Origin: Entophlyctis helioformis
Lineage: Eukaryota; Chytridiomycota; Chytridiomycetes; Chytridiales; Chytriomycetaceae
Length of the DNA stretch: 35,807 nt
Direction: 5' to 3'
NCBI GenBank assembly: GCA_025526915.1
Contig: JAHLKH010000230.1
Location: 1-35,807 of the forward strand
Positions 17-35,375 of this stretch are shown one piece after another. Position numbers and translations under genes: made by a program. The notes below the pieces were generated by a model. That model ran no database searches, was not told the DNA's origin, and saw only the letters and a program-made list of their open reading frames with translations. The stretch's first letter is position 1. The number at the start of each line of letters is the position of its first letter.

Positions 17-1743
17 ATGACGACGAAGCGACAGACGGCAGTCAACGCAGACGCAGACGCAGCAGCCAGCGAAGAGCATGTGCGCCGTCTGCAGAGCCAG
101 CTGCAGAGCACAGCAGAGCAGCTGGTTGCCCTTGGCCGCACGGACATTGTGCTGGCTGTGGTCGAGCAGGTCGTTGGAGCGAGTGGCAGCCAAGCCGTCG
201 AGCCAGGACAGTCAGGACAGCCGCAAGAACAGCCATGTGTGCCTCGCTATGTGGTGCCGCCAGCCACCGGCGACCTTGCATACGGACGCAGCCACTGGGA
301 CGGCAAGCCCGCCGAGATCCACGCCATGATCCTCAAGCACGCCGGACCACTCACTCGCTTCCTCAACGGCATACTCGGCGATACGGCCACACTCGACGAA
401 GCGACCAAGTTGGAGATGTGGATCGATGCGTTCAAGACGGACTGGCAGGGCGATCTGGCTTTGCTGCCTGACGTTAGGCTGACGGCCGACAACGGGCTGC
501 TCCTCGCACCCTCTCGCTCCATGTACGACCGTCTGTGCAAGCGCTTTCCTCAGCACACAGAGACGGAGTGTGCAAGACATGACGCAGACCACAACAACTA
601 CGATGGATCGTTCGATGCCACTCGTTTTGAAAGCCACCGGCTGCTTCTCATTCCCATGCGGCACGGCTGGTTCGATCTGATCGACTTTACGTTTCCGATC
701 GCACTCGCTCGCATGGCGATCCGCTTTGGCTGTCTCGATCTGCTCAAGCATCTCGACGACAAGTACAAGACTCTCCAACGCTGGATGGCGAACACGATGC
801 GACAAGCTCGTACTGGCACGGCGCAGTTGCTCAAGCCGCACGTTGTGGAAGTCTTGAGGTCATGCAGTACCTGTTTGAGAGGGGCGTGACAGGATGCACG
901 ACCGATGCCATGGACTCGGCAGCTGCCTACGGCCATCTGCACGTCGTCAAGTGGCTTCACGCCAACAGGACGGAAGGATGCACAGATCAGGCGATGGATT
1001 ATGCGGCCGCCAATGGCCATCTGCATGTCGTCAAGTGGCTACATGCTAACAGGACCGAAGGATGCACGACTGAAGCCATGGACTGGGCGGCTGAATGCGG
1101 CCACCTGCATGTCGTCAAGTGGCTGCATGCCAACAGGACGGAAGGTTGCACAGCTGCTGCGATGGATGACGCGGCTGCCTACGGCCATCTCCATATCGTC
1201 AAGTGGCTCCACGAGAACAGGACAGAAGGATGCACGACTGAAGCCATGGACCTTGCGGCTGCCTACGGCCATCTGCATGTTGTCAAGTGGTTACACGCCA
1301 ACAGGACGGAAGGATGCACGGAGAAGGCTATGCATTTTGCTGCACGCGAAGGCCATCTGCATGTGGTACAGTGGGTCAACGAGATCTGCAGTTTAGAGTG
1401 TACGACCCGTGGACTGGATGTCGCCATCAGCCGGGGACACATGGACATTGTCAAGTACATGCACTCGAAAGGCGGCCGCGCATCAAACACAGCCATTGAG
1501 TTTGCGGCCAATTCGGGCAAACCCGAGATGGTGCGGTACTTGCTAGATTGCGGATACGCGGTTGAACTCGGAGCACTCGAATGTGCCGAGACAGCCGAGA
1601 TGGTTGATTTTCTCTTTGCCAGCCTCACTCTGGACCGGGCACAGGCGCTGCTTGCAGAAGCAACCCAAGGAGATGACGCCGACCAGACCACCATCGAGGA
1701 ACTCGAGTCGACCATCCAGAAACTGCAAGCATCAAGCATGTGA
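17..1743 (+). CDS. Ankyrin-repeat protein, F-box-like N-terminus (copy 1)
   Basis: Ankyrin-type protein of unknown partner. The N-terminal part has a short coiled segment (about residues 20-55) and then a conserved block containing GKPAEIHAMILKHAGPLT, which resembles the start of an F-box-like module. The C-terminal half is a run of 28-residue repeats with the core [17 protein letters not shown], then a family tail containing SLTLDRAQALLAEA and a short coiled end. The frame breaks near 763-806: codons run in one frame to about 800, while the homologous sequence from YWHGAV onward is in another. A 44-nt GT..AG intron at 763-806 would restore one frame (join 17..762, 807..1743; 560 aa), but it is shorter than any other intron here, and copy 3 has the same break without the donor. 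The alternative is an inherited frameshift. The first ATG in frame is at 17; any upstream promoter lies outside the window. Confidence 0.75.
892..1395 (+). repeat. Six 84-bp in-frame coding repeats
   Basis: Units begin at 892, 976, 1060, 1144, 1228 and 1312, each starting ggatgcac or ggttgcac, and each encodes one 28-residue ankyrin-like unit. Identity is high at the DNA level, including third positions, which suggests recent unit expansion or gene conversion. Later units in the gene are diverged. Confidence 0.9.
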
Positions 1744-2097: not shown

Positions 2098-3594
2098 TCA
2101 TTTCGAGCTGGTCTTTCGCCTCTTGGGATTGGCTTCCTTGTCTGCCTTGGCTTTGGCCTTCTCGAGCCGCTTGACTGCCGCCTCGAGTAGCTTGACGATC
2201 GTCTTGAACCCCTCTTCTTTCGTCTTGGCCTCCTCAAGCAGAGTCCGAGCGCGCTCGAGTGTCAGACTGTCGATCATCGACTTTCGGACAGCAGGATCCT
2301 TGACCTCCAAGATCGTGTTTGCATCAAACGAATATCGATTGTCCAGCAGGAACTGGACAATGTCGGCATATTTATGCACCACAGCCATCCAGAATACGCG
2401 AGGCGTGAAGGCGTCGGGCTGGTGTGCGTGGAACCACTTGATCATCTCAAGGTGGCCTTCGTCTGCAGCCTCTTCAATGGCTGCTCGAGCATCAAAGTCA
2501 GGGATCCGAGGAAGCAGGAACGTGAGAACGTCAAGATGCCCTCCTTTGGCTGCAGCAACGACGGCGTCATTGTCAACCATGGATGGGTAGTGCTCAACCA
2601 GCCATTTGAGCGCATGCAGATGACCGTACGTAGCCGCATTGGCCAAAGCCCGTTTGGTGCATCCCTCACGCCATTTGGCATGCAGCCACTGCATCACGTC
2701 CAAGTGGCCACCTTTGGCTGCATCAGCCATGGCTTCGGTCGTGAAGCTGCCGTTGCCTGCGTCGTGCAGCATCTGCAAGGTTTCCAGACATCCACTCGCA
2801 GCAGCGTGATTCATGGCCGGCTCCAAGTCAAACTCTCGAAACTGCGACAGATCGACGACCTTGCGCGTGAAGGCGAGGTGTCGCAGGAGAGCAGCATGGC
2901 CATGTACGATCGCCCACCAACCAAGCGCAATCGGGTACTTGTAGTCGAACAGATCGAACCAGCCACGGCGCGCGGGAATATAGAACAGCGAGAGCCGGTT
3001 GAAGCCCAAGAAGTGGTTGCTGACATAGGCGTTCAGGAGACTGGGCTTGGTGACACCGAGCTCCCATAGTTGCTGTCGATACGGACAGCGGAGCCGCAGG
3101 CGCTCGTACATGGACCGAGTGTGCACTTGGCTGAAGCTGTCCTGGAACATGAGCGGCGTGTCGGGCAGCAGAGCCAGGTCGCCCTGCCAGTCACGCTTGA
3201 ACGCATCGGCCCAGATCGCCAACTTGGTCGCTTCGTCGAGCTCTTCCTTGGTGCCGAGCTTGCCGTCGAGGAACTGGTGCAGAGGGCTGACGAGGTCCAG
3301 GATCATGGTGCGGATCTCTGCGGGCATCCTGTCCCACCACGACGACCCCCACGGCATCTCGACGGTGGCAGCATCGTCGTTGAACCTGTTGGCTGCATCG
3401 TCGTTGTCGTCGTCGTTGCTGTCGCTGGCTGTTGCAGCGCCAGAAGACGGAGACGCAGAGCGCTGTCGCCAAGTGCTGCTGCTGTTCCCCTTGCGCACGC
3501 CGCCCTTGAACGTCGCAGCCGCTCGCTTAGTTTTGGCCGCCACAGCTGCCACAGCCGCCTTGTCAGCCAGCCGTCCACTCTCTTGCTGCTCCAT
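2098..3594 (-). CDS. Ankyrin-repeat protein, F-box-like N-terminus (copy 2)
   Basis: Intact single-exon relative of the flanking copies on the opposite strand, about 498 aa from the ATG at 3594. The same frame stays open up to 3909 but overlaps the start of copy 3, and that extension looks non-coding, so I prefer 3594. Order: Ala/Lys-rich and acidic Asn/Asp low-complexity region; conserved block MPAEIRTMILDLVSPLHQFL (F-box-like); WADAFKRDWQGDLALLPD; about seven degenerate ankyrin units such as KGGHLDVMQWLHAKWREGC; family tail with SLTLERARTLLEEA; Lys-rich coiled C-terminus ending in a possible basic nuclear signal (KRRKTSSK). Its repeats are much more diverged than those in copies 1 and 3, so it was not part of their recent duplication. 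Molecular role unknown. Confidence 0.8.
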   Translation of the reverse strand: MEQQESGRLADKAAVAAVAAKTKRAAATFKGGVRKGNSSSTWRQRSASPSSGAATASDSNDDDNDDAANRFNDDAATVEMPWGSSWWDRMPAEIRTMILDLVSPLHQFLDGKLGTKEELDEATKLAIWADAFKRDWQGDLALLPDTPLMFQDSFSQVHTRSMYERLRLRCPYRQQLWELGVTKPSLLNAYVSNHFLGFNRLSLFYIPARRGWFDLFDYKYPIALGWWAIVHGHAALLRHLAFTRKVVDLSQFREFDLEPAMNHAAASGCLETLQMLHDAGNGSFTTEAMADAAKGGHLDVMQWLHAKWREGCTKRALANAATYGHLHALKWLVEHYPSMVDNDAVVAAAKGGHLDVLTFLLPRIPDFDARAAIEEAADEGHLEMIKWFHAHQPDAFTPRVFWMAVVHKYADIVQFLLDNRYSFDANTILEVKDPAVRKSMIDSLTLERARTLLEEAKTKEEGFKTIVKLLEAAVKRLEKAKAKADKEANPKRRKTSSK

Positions 3595-3908
3595 GCGTTG
3601 CGGCTGCTGTTGTTTGTTGGTGTCCAGGCTGACTCGCGACGAAAACGGCTTCCAGATCTGCCCTGCGACCGTCGCACTCCTGGCTGCGGTGTTCCTTTCA
3701 TGGATCAGGCAGCTCGGTTCCAGGTGCTCGCTGTGCACGCCCACTAGCCCCAACGCCAAGCCCACCCACGCCAGCCCACCACTGTGCACCATGACATGCC
3801 GTGTCTGTGGATGTCCCACATTCTCGTTCGTTGCAATGGCACTTGTTGGACGATCGTTTCGAGTGGATCTTGTCCTCACAACCACAAAGCGAGCAAGCGG
3901 CTTTGACA
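3595..3908. promoter_or_regulatory. Divergent intergenic region between ankyrin copies 2 and 3
   Basis: About 314 bp between the preferred start of copy 2 (-) and the start of copy 3 (+). The last 40 bases (from about 3869, tgtcctcaca...) match the first bases of the window, so the duplicated segment starts here or upstream. No TATA box recognised. Confidence 0.4.
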
Positions 3909-5547
3909 ATGCAGGCGGAGCGACAGACGGCAGACAACGCAGACGCAGACGCAGCAGCAGCCAGCGACGAGCATGTGCGCCGTCTGCAGAGCCAGCTGCA
4001 GAGCACAGCAGAGCAACTGGTTGCCCTTGGCCGCACCGACATTGTGCGTGCTGTGGTCGAGCAGGTCGTTGGAGCGAGTGGCAGCCAGGCCGTCGAGCCA
4101 GGACAGCCAGGCAGCCAGCAGCAACGACTGCACAGCCAGGTGTGCCTCGCTATGTGGTGCCGCCAGCCACCGGCGACCTTGCGTTCGGCAGCAGCCACTG
4201 GGACGGCAAGCCGGCCGAGATCCACGCCATCATCCTCAAGCACGCCGGCCCGCTCACCTCTTCGTCAACGGCATACTCGGCGACACGGCCACACTCGACG
4301 AAGCGATCAAGATGCAGCTGTGGACCGATGCGCTCAAGGTCGACTGGCAGGGCGATCTGGATCTGCTGCCTGACGTCAAGCTGACGGCCGACAACGGACT
4401 GCTCCTCGCACACTCTCGCTCCATGTACGACCGTCTGTGCGAGCGCTTTCCTCAGCACACTGAGCCCTGTGGCAAGTCGACGCACGCAACAACAACTACG
4501 ACGACCCGTTCGATGCCACTCTTTTGACAGCCGCCGGCTGCTTCTCATTCCCATGCGGCACGGCTGGTTCGATCTGGTTGACTTTACGTTTCCGATCACA
4601 CTCGCTCGCATGGCCATCCGCTGGATGCCTCGATCTGCTCAAGCATCTCGATCTCAACCTCAACATGCTCCAACGCTGGATGGCCAACACGATTCGGCTG
4701 ACGAGTACTGGCATGGCGCAGTTGATCACGCGGCAGGCATGGACATCTCGATGTTGTGCAGTACTTGTTTAGTTTTGGTGTGTCATGCACGAAGCAGGCG
4801 ATGAATGGTGCGGCTGGAAAGGGCCATCTGCATGTCGTCAAGTGGCTCCACGAGAACAGGACGGAGGGATGCACAGATCAGGCGATGGACTGGGCGGCAG
4901 AAACGGCCACCTGCACGTGATTGAGTGGCTGCATGCCAACCGGACGGAAGGATGCACAAGCAGGCGATGGATTACGCGGCTTGGAAGGGCCACTTGGATG
5001 TCGTCAAGTGGCTACATGCCAACAGGACGGAGGGATGCACGGCTGCTGCGATGGACTGGGCGGCCATGTACGGCCATCTGCATGTGGTGCAGTGGCTCCA
5101 CACCAAACGAACGGAAGGATGCACGGCTGCTGCGATGGACTACGCGGCTCGCAGCGGTCATCAGCATGTTGTAAGGTGGTTGCACGAGATCCGCGATGAA
5201 GCGTGTACGACCCGTGCATTGGATGCCGCCATCAGCCGGGGCACGTGGACGTTGTCAAGTACATGCACTCGCAAAGCAGCCGCGCATCAAACAATGCTGT
5301 TGAGTTTGCAGCCACAGCCGGCAAACCCGAGATGGTGCGGTACTTGCTAGATTGCGGATACGCGGTTGAACTCGGAGCACTCGAATGTGCCGAAACAACG
5401 GAGATCGCCGATATCCTCCTTGCCAGCCTCACACTGGACCGGGCACAGACGCTGCTTGCAGAATCAAACCAAGGAGATGCCACGAACCAGGCCACCATCG
5501 AGCGACTTCGAGCGACTATCAAGAAACTGCAAGCGTCAAGCATGTGA
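3909..5547 (+). pseudogene. Ankyrin-repeat pseudogene (copy 3)
   Basis: Clear paralogue of copy 1 over its whole length, but broken. Following the homologous protein requires at least nine frame changes, near 4140, 4255, 4515, 4625, 4690-4710, 4750, 4900, 4960 and 5240. Recognisable stretches are DEHVRRLQSQLQSTAEQL, GKPAEIHAIILKHAGPLT, WFDLVDFTFPITLARMAI, the 84-bp ankyrin units (for example [17 protein letters not shown]), and the family tail SLTLDRAQTLLAES. The final stop at 5545-5547 is in the same context as in copy 1. Neighbouring genes are intact, so general sequencing error is unlikely. The break near 4690-4710 is the same as the one in copy 1. Confidence 0.85.
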
Positions 5548-21282: not shown

Positions 21283-21382
21283 GCTTGCTGTGTTGGTGAC
21301 TCTCTGGCCAAGTGCGTGTTTGGCCACGTCATCGCTTTCCGTCGCGTCCAGACTGCAGAGACTCGCCAACAGACACAGCACA

Positions 21383-22870
21383 GAGCGCCGTCCAGAAGGC
21401 AGACAGGAAGCGAGCGTCGCGGTCCGAGACAATAGACGACGGCAGACCGTGGCCAGCAAGCACCCATCGGTTGAGGAACAGCGCGGCAAGATCCTCGGCA
21501 GTCGCATCGCGTCGCGCCGGCACGCACTTGACAAGCTTTGTCAGGCGATCCACAACCACAAACACATCGTCGTTGCCCTCGTCCGACATGGGCAGCAAGG
21601 CAACGTCGCAGGCCACAGACTGGAAGCGGTCGGCAGGGATGGGCAGCGGGTGCAGCAGACCGGCAGGCGCCTGCGTCGACGAGTTGAACCGCTGGCAGGC
21701 GTCGCACGAGCCCACAAAGCGGCCGACCGACGCAGCCATGTCCGGCCAGTAGTAGTGCGCACGCAGACGGCCGTATGTTCGTTCGCGGCCCTGGTGGCCG
21801 GCATGGGCCGGCTCGTGGTACGAGGTGAGCAGGTCGGTGCGCACTTGACCCTCTGGGATGTACATGCGACCCTCGTAGAACCACAGGCCGTCGACCAGCT
21901 CGAGCTTGGCTGCCAACTGACGCTCGTGTGCAGCAGCATCAGCAGGATTGGCCTTCCAGCGAGCGACGTTGAGCAGGAACGGGTCGGCAGCAAACAGCGG
22001 GCGGATGCGAGCAGTGATGCCAGAGGTGACCGTCGTCAGGGCAGACACTTCAACCGTCGAGCGGCATCGAGCGCAGTGCGGGGCAACAGTCACATGGCGC
22101 GACAGCATGTCAGCCAGGTGGTTCTCACCGCCCTGGATGTACTGGACGGTCGCATCAAACTCCTGCAGCTCCATGATCCAGCGAGCCTGGCGGTACAACA
22201 GCTTGGGCTGCGTCGAGATCCAGCGCAGCGATGCATGGTCGGTGTGGATGGTGAAGTGCACACTGAGCAGGTAGTGCCGGTACTTGTCGCAGGTGTCCAC
22301 GATTGCCAGCATCTCGCGCTCGTGGGTCGGGTAGTTGCGTTCCGCATCATTGAGCTTGCGCGAGTAGAACGAGACCGGATGGATCTTGGCCGTGCCGTCC
22401 GCATCAACATGCTTCTGGCCAATCCAGCCACCAATGGCAAACTCGGATGCGTTCACACAGCTATGATCCAGTCCCTGCACAAGCACGTCTGCCCTGACAC
22501 GATGGAGTGCACTGTCCTTGAGCTGCTTCTTGACCATTGTGCACTCCAAGCCATCAAGCATCTGCGCAAGCACTCCAAAGTCAAGGCCAAGGAGCAGGAT
22601 CTGATGGATATGGTCGATGCCCAGCAGTATGGCATTGTCATGTGGCTGGAGAATGTCACGCAACCCTCTTCTGAGGATGTCAACAGGATGGTCAGGTCTG
22701 TGCGTCCTTGGATGCTGCTGCCATCCCGAGCTGATTGAGGACACTTGCGCACTGAGAGACCGGCGTGTGCCAATAGGCCTCTTGAATGGCATCGAGTTGA
22801 CCATCATGGAGGTCCAAGGCAAAGAACAGCTCGTGCGCATGTGGATGTGTAATGGATGTAGGATAGTCAC
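21383..22870 (-). mobile_element. Truncated Ty3/gypsy-type retrotransposon pol fragment
   Basis: One frame stays open on the minus strand through most of this stretch. In order: a degenerate end of the reverse transcriptase region (to about 22560); the RNase H tether and domain (FAIGGWIGQKH, PVSFYSRKLNDAERNYPTHE, FTIHTDHASLRWI, QGGENHLADMLSRH); a chromatin-independent linker; the integrase zinc-binding HHCC region (HEPAHAGHQGRERTYGRLR, YYWPDM, CDACQRF); and part of the integrase core with its first two acidic residues (ACDVALLP, VSDRDARFLSAFW). The third catalytic Glu, the C-terminal integrase part, gag, protease, most of RT and both LTRs are missing. It is a dead fragment lying between the three-helix gene and the LRR gene. 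Confidence 0.85.
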
Positions 22871-22903
22871 TTGAATACATTCACAAGCAGTATTGGCTTC
22901 GAT

Positions 22904-28212: not shown

Positions 28213-28774
28213 AAGCTTGTTGGGCCGCTGCGAGTGCGTGAGAGAGAGACCGGAGCAGCCAGAGCAGCGGCCGGGGCGAGGGCCAGGGTGAAGGCACGAC
28301 GAGGGTGTCTGAGTTGGTGGCGCTTGTGCCGCCAGATATTCTTGTCGTTGTGGAAAGTTTGGAAAGACCGCTTTGGGTTGAACACGTTCAGCACGATCTG
28401 CACAACTCGAAAATGGTGGCGCCGGCACGAGGGACACAAGCACTGTCGCCCTTGTACAGCAGACCTGCCTGTGATTTGCCACAACGGCAAGCTAGAGAGC
28501 AAGCGATATTGATGCTGGCCGTGGGCGATGGTACTGGCCGAGCTTACAATGCCGTCTGTCTGACAGAGCTATGCCCGTGTCCTTGTCGCGTGTCATCATG
28601 GATCATTCAGCCCACAAAGCCACCAACCAGCTCCCAAAAAACTCCGAATAAATGTGCCCCAGGTTGGCATGAATTGACGGCCCGACTTGGTGCTTCGATA
28701 ACCCTTGCCCCAACTAAATCTTTCGCCATCGCTCCCACCGTTCCATTTTTCGCGGCAACCACTCTCGGTCGACC

Positions 28775-29773
28775 ATGTATATATCCAGTCGCCGAGCATC
28801 GGCGTTACACCAAGCAGTACCGAGTGGCGCCGATGGCAACCGGCCAGCAAGCAGCATCAGACTGGTTCCACTGGAAGACGTCGTTATGCTTGTCGCAACC
28901 ATCAACGCTATCGCCGCCGGTCTGTGTGTCCTCTTTGTTATCTTTTCATCACGTCATCTTTACACACAAAAGTTCTTTACAAAGATGCCGCTGCTCGCCC
29001 TTGTGTGCTGGTTCGCCTCGACGCTTCTCATCTGGTTCTCGGCGCATTTCCCCAGCGTTGCTGCCATGCCATACATTTCCTACGCTTTGGGCTCAGTGTT
29101 CGACTTTGTGGGCCGGTCGCTGTTCGTATGGTTCATTTACTGCCGAACGGCGGCGTTGTGGCCCGACGCGCCTGGCGTCCGGGTCGTCGCCTGGCTGGTG
29201 TACGGCGTGCAGACGGTTGTCTTTGGCTTCGTCATGTACGCAACGTTTCCGGGCGGCCCTGTTAGTCCTGGCTCGCCCGTTTACGTCGGCACTCTCGCAA
29301 TGTACACTGCAAGCGATCTGCTCACAAGTATCCTCGACGGGCTGCTCATCGCGAGACTGTGGGCGCTGCACTCTAGGCTCGGCACCGACCAGTCGGCCGC
29401 ACCGTTCATCCACCTCCACCTGTTCTACTTTTACAGCGCGGTCGTGTGTGTGGGGTTTGTGATTGCACTCCCGTTTGTGTTTGCCCTCCTGAGCATCTTG
29501 GGACTCAGCCCGTTCCTGGCATTCGCAAGCCTGGTGTCCTTTCGTATCGCTCTCACGGACGTGTTCTCCAACCTCATCCGAGACTCGCTCGTTGGTCGCC
29601 AACTGCTGGATGCCGGTCAGCCTAGCCCGCCCCATGGAACCCCTGACAATAAGCGTCTCAGCAGACACGCCGAGCAACATCCGTGCATCAGGCATTCGGC
29701 CTTGACTGGCGCTGCTGGCGCTGCTGGAGATGCGCCAGTCGAACAGACGCGGCCGATATTGTGCCTTGAATGA
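28775..29773 (+). CDS. Seven-helix membrane protein (GPCR-like topology)
   Basis: 332 aa if started at the ATG at 28775. The next in-frame ATG (28886) falls inside helix 1, so the upstream one is preferred, although tatatat at 28778-28784 could be a TATA box favouring the shorter form. Seven hydrophobic segments: LVATINAIAAGLCVLFVIF, LLALVCWFASTLLIWFSA, YALGSVFDFVGRSLFVWFI, VVAWLVYGVQTVVFGFVMY, AMYTASDLLTSILDGLLIA, YSAVVCVGFVIALPFVFALL and SPFLAFASLVSFRIALTDVF, then a ~75-residue tail. Topology and length match a 7TM receptor-like fold, and helix 5 (SDLLTSILDGLLIARLW) resembles helix 5 of the protein at 17334 (YDISQGLYLMWRL), suggesting one lineage-specific family. Single exon as read. Ligand and coupling unknown. 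Confidence 0.7.
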   Translation: MYISSRRASALHQAVPSGADGNRPASSIRLVPLEDVVMLVATINAIAAGLCVLFVIFSSRHLYTQKFFTKMPLLALVCWFASTLLIWFSAHFPSVAAMPYISYALGSVFDFVGRSLFVWFIYCRTAALWPDAPGVRVVAWLVYGVQTVVFGFVMYATFPGGPVSPGSPVYVGTLAMYTASDLLTSILDGLLIARLWALHSRLGTDQSAAPFIHLHLFYFYSAVVCVGFVIALPFVFALLSILGLSPFLAFASLVSFRIALTDVFSNLIRDSLVGRQLLDAGQPSPPHGTPDNKRLSRHAEQHPCIRHSALTGAAGAAGDAPVEQTRPILCLE

Positions 29774-29967: not shown

Positions 29968-32900
29968 TCACCGCATCATCGACGGCACGCTCACTGCAGC
30001 ACCACCACGGCTCCCACTCCCACTCCCACTCCCACTGCCCGACACTGGCTTCTGCTCGCCATTCGAGCACAGCGAGGCACCTGCTCCACCGATTCCGCCC
30101 TCGACGCCACCGACACCACCACCACCACTGCTCGTACTATAAGAGCAACAGACACCATCACGATCGTGCTGATGCCCGTCATTGCAGTGATGCCGACCGC
30201 CGACAGCGGGGATGGGCGTGCCGCTCGGCTCGCTGGCACCATCACCCATGCTGCACCCACTCGTCGCGTGGTCCGTGTACGTCGGGTCCGTCGTGCCAGC
30301 CGGCGGCCGTAACACGGACAGAATGCTTCCCGCATGCTGATGTCCGTGGCCATGACCCTCAGCGCTATGGTCGTCAAGCGCCGCTGCGAACCCGGATGCG
30401 ATCGGCGGCTGGCCCGTGACGTTCATGGCAGGCTTGCTGGTCGCAACAGTACCGACGTCCTTGCCTGCGTCCGTGCTGGTATCCGTCTGCTTGCTCGTGC
30501 TCTTGACGCTCTTGCTGCCTGCCTTGACGCGCACCGCGCCAAGCGGCGGTCGGCCCTCCCCTTCTCCACCCTCCACCGTGTCCGCTGGATCGACTGGGTC
30601 CATGGCACCTGCACTCGCAGCCACACTCGCAGCCACACTCGCAGCCACACTCGCACTGCTGGTCTCGAGCGGCACGTACCGAGGATCCGACGGGCCCTCG
30701 ACGACAACGCGAAGCCGCTCATCCGACTCTGGCACGCGGTGCGAGAACACGACGCGCACGTTGCGGGCAAGGTACAGCCGCCGCCGCTTTGTGCACACAA
30801 ACTGCAAATGGATCGCGTACCGCAGCACCCCTGCTCCTCCCGCTGTCGCGGACGGCGAGGCTGGCAGTGCCGATGTGGATGCAGGCGTGGTTCCAGACGC
30901 TGGCGTTGATGCGGATGCGGATGCTGCCGAACAGGCATACGACTTTTGCCGCAGAAACGTCTTGCTGCCTGGCGGCATGTCGCGGAAATCGTATGGCACC
31001 AGGTACACCTTGACAGCCGTGCGGCTGGGGTTGCGTATCACAATCTGCAGTTGGCCTTTGAGGGGCAGGCGGTAGCCGTCATGGTCGGGCTTGCTGCTGC
31101 CTCCACTGCTACGCCGGCGTGTGTTGTCTGTCGTAGGCGTGTCCGTGTCTGCAACCTTGTCTGCATCTGCACCTGGCGTTGTTGCTGTTGCTGTTGTGGC
31201 AGTGTCCGTTGCAGTCCCAGGCGTATCGGGCGACTCCCGGCCATGCCCACCGACCGTCGACGCAGACGTCACACTGTCGGCCTCATCGCCGCCATCCGCA
31301 GCACGACCGCCCCGCACGTCAATGCATCCGACATAGGGCGTCACAGGCACATTCTCGCCCGCCATTTCGTAGAAGCAGGCCGAGAACCCAACCACGACAT
31401 GCGGCGGACACTTGAGCTTGCTGCTGCTGCTGCTCCGGCGGCGGCCTCCGCTCCCGCTGCTGCCGCACTTGCCTGAACCAACCACGCCAATGTCCGCGAC
31501 GAACGGTATGGGCCGCGACGGCAGCGTCGACATGCGGCCCGAGAGAATGGACTCCTCGTACGATCCGACGAGCGAGCCGAACAGATCAGTAGGTGCGGGC
31601 ATGGGGATGCTGTCGCGGTGCTGGTGGAGGCCATGGTAGCCGCGGAGACTCGTCGGCCGGTCGACGGGCGGTGTGCGCAAAAGGTCGGCGACATCATCGG
31701 TGAAGTCAAAGCCATAGTTGGAGGGTGTTGGTGTGGACGTGGTCGCTGTCGTGGTCGTAGTCGCGGCTGTGGACGCGGTTGTGGACGCGGCGATCAAGGG
31801 CGTCGGGACACTCACGGCTGTCGTTGCTGCTGCTGCTGCTGCTGCTATTGACGAAACGTCCCTTGTTTGGCGTTCGCCGCGTGGCGGGATATCGACGGTC
31901 AACGCTGCACGCGGCATCGGCCGAACAGGTGCTCGAACCCCACTCCCACTCTCGCTCTCGCTTCCCCCACTCGATCCATCCTGCTTGAACAGCAATCGCG
32001 CGGTGGGAGCAGGTGCAGCCACAAGCGCACCAGGCGGCTGTGGTGCACTGAGGGGGCCATCGCTATCATCCGACGACGCCGAGCCTGTCCGTATCATGGC
32101 GCGTCCAAGTGCCGACCGGAACACTGGCACCGCGGTTAAAGCCACAGGCACAAACGCTGGATTCCGAACCAAGGCCGGTCTGCCCATTTCCCGTTGCTGT
32201 TGTTGACGCTGTTGATGTTGTTGATGCTGCTGCTGCTGTTGCTGCTTGTCGCGACTGCTACTGCTGGCCGGCACAGCCGACGAGCCCAAACGAAGATGCG
32301 AGATCGTGAGCACGCGTTTCTGGATCGTTGGGGACGGGAACGGCGACCCGCTCATCGACTGGCGGTCCGGGTACGACACAGGCGGCAGCGGCAGTGACGT
32401 ATCCGGCTGCCCAAAGCCACTTCCATCACTCCCATCGCACTGCAGCTCTGCATTCGGATCCATTTCCGCCGATGTGGGCGACATGGGGAACGTCAGGTCC
32501 TCGTCCTCATGCCTGTCGTGGCCGTCGTCTTGGTCGTCCGTGTTGTACCCGTCCTCGTGCTCATCATCGACCTTGGTGGCAACATCCGGCATGTTGCTAG
32601 CAACACGGCCGACCGACAAGGCGGTGCCAACACGGTTAAAGCCAGCGCAGTCGTACACGACCGACAGATGCAGGAGCCCGGCCATGGCCGCAGCAGGGCG
32701 GAAGCGGTGCACCATGAGCCGCGCTTGGGAATCAAAGCCCGATGATCCGTGACCACTGGGCAGTGGTCCGTCCGGCGTGACCGGCGCCACGTGTGTCCCA
32801 TCGGCCATTGACACACTACAGCGTCGCGCGTGTCGCGTGCCGAGTCACGTCCGGGAGTCGCGGTGTCGGAGTTGCCACGCCGCGTCAACGACCGCGACGG

Positions 32901-33727
32901 CCAGAGTCGGAAAGAGCAGACCGTGAGACGACCGCGACCCACGACAGCACGCAACAGAGACACGCAAAGGCACGCGCAAACACACCTGTACACGAGCTGG
33001 CCATGGGATCCAGCAAGACCCGCGCCGAGCGGCAGCAAGCGCACCTGCGAGCACACGGCCTCGACAAGCAGGAGCAAGTCCGTCGCGCCATCCAGCAGAC
33101 TGCCCGTCGTGGCGCGGCCTCCGAGTCCGTGCGCCGTGCTGGTTCCATAGCCGCGAGTGAGTGAGTTTGAAGGGACGGCGTGCTGAGCCACGAGACCGCA
33201 CCCCGACACGTACCTCTCAGACGGCGTTGGCGCTGGCGGCGCTGAAGGCAGCGATGGCGCAGCCGACAGAGGGCCGGCCTCGTACGACACGATCCATCGC
33301 TCGACCAGCAGCCCGGGGGCCGAGCCGCCGACGACGAAATCCACATTGACGGGCAGCCCGCAGCGCCAGAACTCGTCGTGGCCGAGCAGCGCATCGAGAC
33401 TCCATCCATGCTGGCTGAGGTGGTGGCTGCCATTGTCATTGTCGCTGTCAACGGCGAGAGCGTCGGATGGCGCGACGGGCGTCGTGGATGGCGAGTGTGA
33501 CAGCGAAGACGATGGCGATGGCAATGGCTGACGGTGCCTGCCGACACGGTCGCGCAGAAGCGCCAGGCTGATGCGTGTGAGCGCCTCGAGCACCTGGCGA
33601 TGAGCGGCCGGCTGGGTACGGGCGGTAGCATCTGTTGCTGTTGTCGTCGTTTCAGTGGCAGTCGGAGGCGCAGGGCTTGTCCCTGATGTTGCGATGTCGG
33701 TCAGCTGGCCAGCTCAGCAGGCTTAAC

Positions 33728-33763
<36 letters not shown>

Positions 33764-34092
33764 CAATCGGACCGACCAAAACATGGCTGTTGCAGCTGTT
33801 GCAGCTGTTGTTGTTGCTGTTGCAAGAGCGCCTTCATACTCGTTGTGGTTGTGGTTGCCGTTGTCGTTGTCGTTGTCGATGCTGTGGATGCCAAGGCCGT
33901 CGTTGCTGCTGATGCCGTTGCCGATGCCGATGCTGATGCCGAGGCCAAGAGCAGCCGAGATGGGCCGTGTGGAGGGGCAGTCGGAGTTGCGCAAACTCCG
34001 CCCGCCTGGCTGCTACTGCTGGTATTACTATTACTATTGCTGCTGGTATTGCTGCTGGTAGTGCTGCTCTGGCTGCTGCCTGTCCACTGCAT
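29968..34092 (-). CDS. Atos-family protein with N-terminal HORMA/Atg13-like module
   Basis: Exons 34092..33777, 33712..33214, 33138..32986 and 32815..29968 (1271 aa); introns 64, 75 and 170 nt, donors GTCGGT, GTACGT, GTGTGT, all in phase. An in-phase alternative acceptor at 32755 would remove 20 residues. Residues 1-145 are low complexity. About 146-380 have an HORMA-like order: VLEALTRISLALLRDRVGRH, FWRCGLPVNVDFVV, LLVERWIVSYE, TDLLLLVEAVCSQVRLLPLG, QLVYS and AGLLHLSVVYDC. Residues ~734-823 are the Atos conserved domain (SLVGSYEESILSGRM, CPPHVVVGFSACFYEM, VPVTPYVGCIDV). Residues ~903-1039 are the Atos C-terminal domain (LKGQLQIVIRNPSRTAVKVY, DFRDMPPGSKTFLRQ, RLYLARNVRVVFSHR). Known of the family: Drosophila Atossa is nuclear and acts in gene expression; fission yeast relatives were linked to meiotic chromosome segregation. 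The start at 34092 and the first intron are the least certain. Confidence 0.85.
33728..33767. repeat. (GGCA)n tetranucleotide run inside an Atos intron
   Basis: About nine copies of aggc (GCCT on the coding strand), making up most of the 64-nt first intron (33713-33776). Confidence 0.9.
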
Positions 34093-34249: not shown

Positions 34250-35375
34250 ATGGTGCGTGGTCTGCGCGCGCTGTGTCGGGCAGCAACGAGCAGCAGCAGG
34301 CAGCAGGCAGCGACGACAACGACGACGACGACGACGAGCAGCAGACAGCAGCATCGACAGCAGACGCCCGATGGATGCATGACGGACGGATGGATGGACA
34401 GACGGACGGACGGGCCGCTGTCTACCAGCCCTTCCACGGATGGGATGGATGGGATGGGATGGGATGGGATGGCTCGACTTCACACGGCTCAGCAGGGATG
34501 AACCGTCGACTCGATTCAGCTGCCGAATCAGTTGCCGCCAACAGCCCAGGAGCACCAACACACCAACACCACCTACTCGCTGCTGCTGCTGCTCTTGCTG
34601 CTCTTGCCGCCGCCCAGAACGGCTGCCCTTGCCATGCCAGACAGCCAACACACCAGACTAACGCACAGTCTCCGTTGCGCACCGACAGGGCCGTGTTCGC
34701 ACAAAGACTGTCAAGAAGGCTTCGCGGGTTCTCATTGAGAAGTACTACCCCCGCCTCACTCTCGACTTCCAGACCAACAAGAAGATCGCCGATGAGGTCG
34801 CCATCATTGCCTCGAAGCGTCTCCGCAACAAGATTGCCGGCTTCACCACCCACCTGATGAAGCGCATCCAGCGTGGTCCCGTCCGCGGCATCTCCTTCAA
34901 GCTCCAGGAGGAGGAGAGAGAGCGCAAGGACAACTACGTCCCCGAGGTCTCGGCTCTTGCCGTCGACACCATCGAGGTCGACCTTGACACTGCCGTACGT
35001 CTCTTGCCCCTCCTTTTTTCTTGTTGCGGCCCAGCTCGCTATCTGAGCCTGCCGTGTGTGCCTGCGTGCATTGTGCGAGTGCTGACGTTTTTCTGCTGGC
35101 AACACATGGACAACCGGACGACTTGGCCTGTTCTGGATGGGCGTGAACCGGGCGGGCTGGATCGCATCGCATCGCAACGTTGTGTTGGATCCCTGACTGG
35201 CTGGCTGCTCTGGACGTCCGTTGCTCGATAATCAAACCTCGACCAACAGGCTCTCCTCAAGGCCCTCAACTTTGATGCCATTCCCGGTGTCACCAGCGTC
35301 GACCCCGCCGCTGCTGCCGCTGGCGACCGTGTCGTTGGCGCTGGCAACCGTGACCGTCGCCCCCGCCGCAACTAA
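34250..35375 (+). CDS. RPS17: 40S ribosomal protein eS17
   Basis: Small-subunit ribosomal protein. Exon 1 is just the ATG (34250..34252), followed by a 436-nt intron (donor GTGCGT, acceptor ccgacag); exons 34689..34994 and 35250..35375 complete 144 aa. The core is unmistakable: [70 protein letters not shown]. The C-terminal ~40 residues are lineage-variable, here Ala/Gly/Arg-rich. An intron directly after the start codon is also found in the budding yeast gene. Intron 1 holds low-complexity sequence including a CGA run and a GGGAT repeat. Codon use is the most biased in the window (GCC, AAG, CGC), as expected for high expression. Confidence 0.97.
34436..34472 (+). repeat. (GGGAT)n G-rich tract in eS17 intron 1
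   Basis: tgggatgggat pattern with at least five GGG runs spaced by AT, so a two-base-loop G-quadruplex is possible on the sense (RNA) strand. Confidence 0.85.

Follow-up and report, generated by a model that had tools for sequence, protein, structure and literature searches.

Contig C230 of the Entophlyctis helioformis assembly (JAHLKH010000230.1; 35,807 nt, analysed at its full length and referred to below as the window; the assembly holds 29.6 Mb in 482 contigs) carries on its minus strand a gene of the Atos (FAM214/Atossa) family. Its product is very probably a full-length Atos protein with an N-terminal HORMA domain, a paralogue of the HORMA domain of Atg13 that is placed apart from Atg13 itself in the tree. 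Both Pfam families of the Atos core are found in the open reading frame (ORF) of exon 4, which makes the gene a member of the Atos family; the HORMA domain precedes them and is spread over three exons. Both for this gene and for the Atg13 of the same genome, the best relatives are chytrid fungi. The parts of the gene, by window position, are as follows.

29968..34092, minus strand: Atos gene, from the ATG at 34092 to the stop at 29968; four exons, 1260-1276 codons including the stop (the choice of exon 1/2 junction sets the number)
33783..34092, minus strand: exon 1, rich in Ser, Thr, Ala and Gln, low complexity; 3' boundary uncertain, 33783 to 33728
33214..33712, minus strand: exon 2, HORMA helix A and the first two strands; 5' boundary uncertain, at 33712, 33682 or 33675
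33139..33213, minus strand: intron 2, 75 nt, GTACGT...CAG, in frame and stop-free
32986..33138, minus strand: exon 3, helix C with the VRLLP motif and, at the exon's end, QLVY, the start of that strand
32816..32985, minus strand: intron 3, 170 nt, GTGTGT...TAG
29968..32815, minus strand: exon 4, last HORMA strands, linker and Atos core
32614..33602, minus strand: HORMA domain (Atg13-like), across exons 2-4
33546..33590, minus strand: helix A, LEALTRISLALLRDR (compare helix 23-50 in the orthologue model)
33330..33371, minus strand: FWRCGLPVNVDFVV, conserved Trp and strand (compare strand 80-86 in the orthologue model)
33279..33311, minus strand: LLVERWIVSYE strand; L, E and W invariant in 13/13 aligned domains
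33015..33080, minus strand: helix C with VRLLP, DLLLLVEAVCSQVRLLPLGAGL; Arg and Pro invariant in 13/13 aligned domains
32647..32736, minus strand: closing strands ARLMVHRF ... LLHLSVVYDC (compare strands 180-184 and 193-202 in the orthologue model)
32287..32349, minus strand: linker motif GSPFPSPTIQKRVLTISHLRL / GSPFPSPTIQKRVL between HORMA domain and Atos core; kept in many chytrid rows and partly in Umbelopsis
31330..31572, minus strand: PF13915 (DUF4210), Atos core part 1; E 1.4e-22, 80.4 bits (cut-off 21.2)
30670..30828, minus strand: PF13889 (Chromosome_seg), Atos core part 2; E 1.9e-22, 79.6 bits (cut-off 22.9)

Splice sites were assigned by eye and by reading frame. Six options keep the frame at the exon 1/2 junction, all of them upstream of the HORMA domain, and the junctions within the domain, those of introns 2 and 3, are more securely placed. 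Because intron 2 keeps the frame and has no stop, a form retaining it would also be open.

A hidden Markov model (HMM) of 67 relatives, with the window left out, assigns 110.9 bits to the window domain, against at most 2.2 bits in 1000 shuffles. The domain is 24-42% identical to 12 relatives across the three exons, and the L, E and W of the LxERW strand, together with positions of the Atos core, are invariant among 56 aligned full-length proteins. The earlier note, made from the letters of the window, had read an Atg13-like HORMA module from a series of peptides in the upstream exons; the minus strand encodes every one of these peptides, in the order given there. The interval it assigned to the module, 32755-34092, covers most of the domain (33602-32614) but takes in the low-complexity exon 1 and misses the closing strand in exon 4.

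The fold is supported by an AlphaFold2 model of the orthologue P0009, which, together with fold searches, displays the HORMA arrangement of a long helix A, a sheet, helix C and C-terminal strands. As to a possible two-state safety belt closing over a peptide, C-terminal strands are present in this model, and the fold-search rows tie in Z. The Atos domain resembles the Atg13 HORMA domain (PF10033; PDB 4yk8_B, 4j2g, 5c50, 5xuy, 8do8) in fold and in the order of elements: the two share a helix A with an SK..Q....AR pattern, an E-x-W strand (LERW in fission-yeast Atg13), a helix C ending in R-x-x-P and a closing strand after Gly. In the fold-search rows, Mad2, REV7 and other HORMA proteins (PF02301) reach 10-16% identity against 17-20% for the Atg13 chains, and PF02301 has no match at E <= 1 among nine scanned sequences.

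Sequence profiles point to the same kinship. The comparison of 68 Atos domains with 17 Atg13 domains yields P 2.8e-15 and a score of 105.6 over 192 columns, while 20 column shuffles stay at or below 17.6, with 17.0 for the reversed profile. HMMs detect the relationship in both directions, each within a small set: the Atos HMM matches 17/17 Atg13 rows (E 2.3e-13 to 3.1e-7), and the Atg13 HMM reaches 1.6e-13 for its best Atos row. When PDB sequences are searched with the full-length Atos profile, fission-yeast Atg13 (4yk8_B, 7.9e-8) comes first, followed by three further Atg13 chains (0.14-0.22) and, as a fifth row, Ataxin-7-like protein 3, matched outside the HORMA domain. A 13-sequence profile of the domain retrieves 4yk8_B at 3.6e-6 and 4j2g at 0.021, and LERWIV of the fission-yeast chain aligns with LLVERWIV of the window. 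The PF10033 cut-off is passed, by small margins, in 8/8 scanned relatives, which were picked from proteins already labelled. The HORMA fold and the Atg13 homology proposed from the letters are both supported: they are shown computationally, on orthologues, and the N-terminal domain of Atos is almost certainly a HORMA domain homologous to that of Atg13.

Several observations weigh against this reading. Taken alone, the window domain has no Pfam match at E <= 1, and the Atg13 HMM gives it -1.2 bits, inside the shuffle range; as far as sequence goes, its link to Atg13 runs via its relatives. The structural model was made for an orthologue 38% identical in the domain, since the window domain is spliced, and the domain-only profile also draws, behind 4yk8_B, five unrelated weak PDB rows (E 0.04-2.4).

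The distribution of the domain was assessed from a search with the Atos core, in which 7987 candidates were scored and 133 proteins retained; the counts refer to 120 of these 133, mostly with fungal names and some nameless. An HMM of eight N-termini and the window finds the domain in the window and in 76 of the 120 listed proteins, eight of them by construction. It is present in chytrid, Basidiobolus, Umbelopsis and Mortierella relatives, which bears out the suggestion that it is an ancient part of Atos and not a local fusion. As a general part of Atos, however, it fails: the HMM does not find it in 44 of the 120 (19 Dikarya, 9 other named proteins and 16 with unclear names), although some of these have starts close to the core and may be truncated at the N-terminus. 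Dikarya recognised by name lack it in 19 of 19 cases.

The earlier note pointed to a similar LLLERW motif near the N-terminus of vertebrate ATOSA. Mammalian ATOSA has this motif in the predicted place, and the order of elements is that of the fungal proteins: a helix, a W-P strand, the LERW strand, a helix and later strands. The profile comparison of ATOSA with fungal Atos gives P 2.9e-6 and a score of 43.3 over 111 columns, the best of 20 shuffles scoring 20.5. In Foldseek, the top four matches of a mammalian model are ATG13 HORMA chains (E 0.011-0.027). The support for the domain itself is moderate, and an alternative has to be considered, namely that the HORMA domain is confined to Atos proteins of chytrid and Mucoromycota type, the vertebrate N-terminus being unrelated and LLLERW coincidental. 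ATOSA escapes the Atg13 HMM (best domain E 1.1), the direct comparison of ATOSA with the Atg13 profile is weak (P 6e-4; shuffles 0.019), and none of the 120 proteins in the mammalian ATOSA listing bears a PF10033 label. The mammalian model is itself of low confidence, with a predicted local distance difference test (pLDDT) of 26-79 in the blocks of the domain, VIA scores below 8, the tool's safe level, and no Foldseek match at E 0.001; its alignment held fungal rows, and it is hence not independent. The ATOSA/fungal profile score, the shared order of elements and the ATG13 chains at the head of the Foldseek matches speak against a restriction to fungi, and we regard it as unlikely. The HORMA domain is likely present in vertebrate ATOSA; its fusion with Atos probably predates the split of fungi and animals, with probable loss in Dikarya and perhaps in other lines.

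The UniRef name of one listed Atos protein, P0042, is 'Autophagy-related protein 13', and three other listed names begin 'Autophagy-related prot'. Such names would fit a true Atg13 autophagy subunit that, in this lineage, acquired the Atos core by fusion and acts in the Atg1 kinase complex, an explanation we hold to be very improbable. A separate Atg13 gene is present in the same genome on contig C132 (65 bits), and a search with its spliced product retrieves 23 Atg13 proteins. Both an Atos gene with the domain and an Atg13 are present in at least five other species: Basidiobolus meristosporus, Basidiobolus ranarum, Synchytrium microbalum, Polyrhizophydium stewartii and Gaertneriomyces semiglobifer. 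In an unrooted tree from a quick search, one branch with a support of 100 in the Shimodaira-Hasegawa-like approximate likelihood ratio test (SH-aLRT) splits 62 Atos from 17 Atg13 domains; several branches of this tree, that of the window included, are long, and the letter make-up of the window sequence was flagged as odd. The WFN[LIV] motif that follows helix A in fungal Atg13 occurs in 16/23 Atg13 proteins, some of the others being truncated, and in 0/77 Atos domains. Atg13 has a disordered C-terminal region that binds FIP200/Atg17 and ULK1/Atg1. The Atos domain is joined to DUF4210 and Chromosome_seg, and the C-terminal part of the protein encoded here is the Atos core.

The same motif bears on what the paralogue might bind. 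We take its Trp to be W50 of human ATG13. W50 lies in the connector of helices A and B and is reported to form the ATG9A groove together with helices A and C (PMC9931213). Lacking WFN[LIV], the Atos domain need not have kept the binding surface of Atg13, and it may dock something else.

That the resemblance to HORMA arises by chance or from a wrong gene model, with non-coding upstream exons and a gene starting at exon 4, is scarcely credible: the low-complexity exon 1, the unsettled first junction and the in-frame intron 2 would suit it, and the two genome copies, being identical here, carry no information on selection, but the score of the domain over its shuffles and the identity to relatives speak against it, and homology extending across three exons makes transcripts that begin only at exon 4 less likely. 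The second copy of the region is a colinear stretch on contig C87, 97.1% identical over 8.3 kb in the part of the Atos gene, and presumably represents the other haplotype. Within a stretch of about 120 bases in exon 4, this copy is without one base at each of window positions 32614, 32637 and 32731; these three gaps are probably an assembly error.

To our knowledge, no biochemical mechanism has been described for Atos. HORMA domains act as docking modules. That of ATG13 in the human ULK1 complex is reported to pair with ATG101 and to help hold ATG9A (PMC9931213). On the simplest reading, the Atos HORMA domain might dock a partner, either through HORMA-HORMA pairing, as between Atg13 and Atg101, or with a short peptide kept beneath its safety belt, and the docked domain would bring or switch the beta-rich C-terminal Atos core. 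That partner docking is its main job seems to us an evenly balanced proposition. Candidate HORMA partners are at hand, since the genome encodes an Atg101 above the cut-off on contig C1 and has PF02301 HORMA matches on two contigs. Twin matches to Atg101 below the threshold (15.6 bits) were also noted in long ORFs at C130:54007 and C462:9519.

FAM214B may lack the domain; if it does, the domain is dispensable there. In the fly, Atos is reported to be mainly nuclear, to raise certain mRNAs, to need its conserved domains and to support macrophage metabolism and tissue invasion, with both of its mammalian counterparts, FAM214A and FAM214B, able to substitute (PMC9194793). Its domain description there comprises DUF4210, Chr_Seg, transactivation domains (TADs), a nuclear localisation signal (NLS) and a nuclear export signal (NES), with no HORMA named, and the word 'autophagy' is absent from the main text (PMC9194793). 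With both core domains at E of about 1e-22, the protein encoded here is an ordinary family member in its C-terminal part, and the HORMA domain is what distinguishes it from the published fly description.

In many chytrid rows, a GSPFPSPTxQKRVL motif follows the HORMA domain by about 30-120 residues. We speculate that this linker motif might serve for internal closure or as a phospho-motif. A wider and doubtful extension would make Atos a HORMA switch that either closes on its own SPFPSPxxQKRVL linker, perhaps under proline-directed phosphorylation, or borrows Atg101, the partner of Atg13. From fungi to vertebrates, such a switch might connect nutrient or autophagy signals, or the meiotic state, with the transcriptional control exerted by the Atos core.

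The component families are known, and in fungi their combination can already be seen from automatically assigned Pfam labels and from a small number of UniRef names. The domain had been called little-noticed; this fits the searchable papers, as no paper stating a HORMA domain in Atos was found in the PMC open-access literature with the terms used, but precomputed Pfam labels already put PF10033 (ATG13) on 35 of the 120 listed Atos proteins. Its absence from the Dikarya proteins examined may partly explain the scant notice. Newly added here is its extension to mammalian ATOSA and to this genome, in which Pfam misses it. With Atos, the few HORMA families of eukaryotes gain a paralogue of Atg13 that is distinct from Atg13; the fold has until now been known from autophagy and from the control of cell division. 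A docking-type fold in a little-studied gene-control protein of many fungi, and likely of mammals, offers a lead on mechanism, and directs tests of Atos towards a partner, a peptide and a two-state switch.

The Atos gene stands head to head with a gene for ribosomal protein eS17 (window 34250-35375, plus strand), whose likely start at about 34250, placed by eye, is less than 200 bases from the Atos ATG. On its other side, a plus-strand open frame of 351 residues (28718-29770) matches no Pfam family at E <= 0.001; it shows several hydrophobic stretches by eye and is perhaps a membrane protein. Farther away, tandem repeats with an 84-nt unit occupy positions 891-1384 and 4822-5169, the former within an ankyrin-matching ORF (631-1740, plus strand); ankyrin matches are also found at 2101-4149 (minus strand). 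A retrotransposon-like ORF with RT RNase H and integrase H2C2 domains lies at 21332-22903 on the minus strand.
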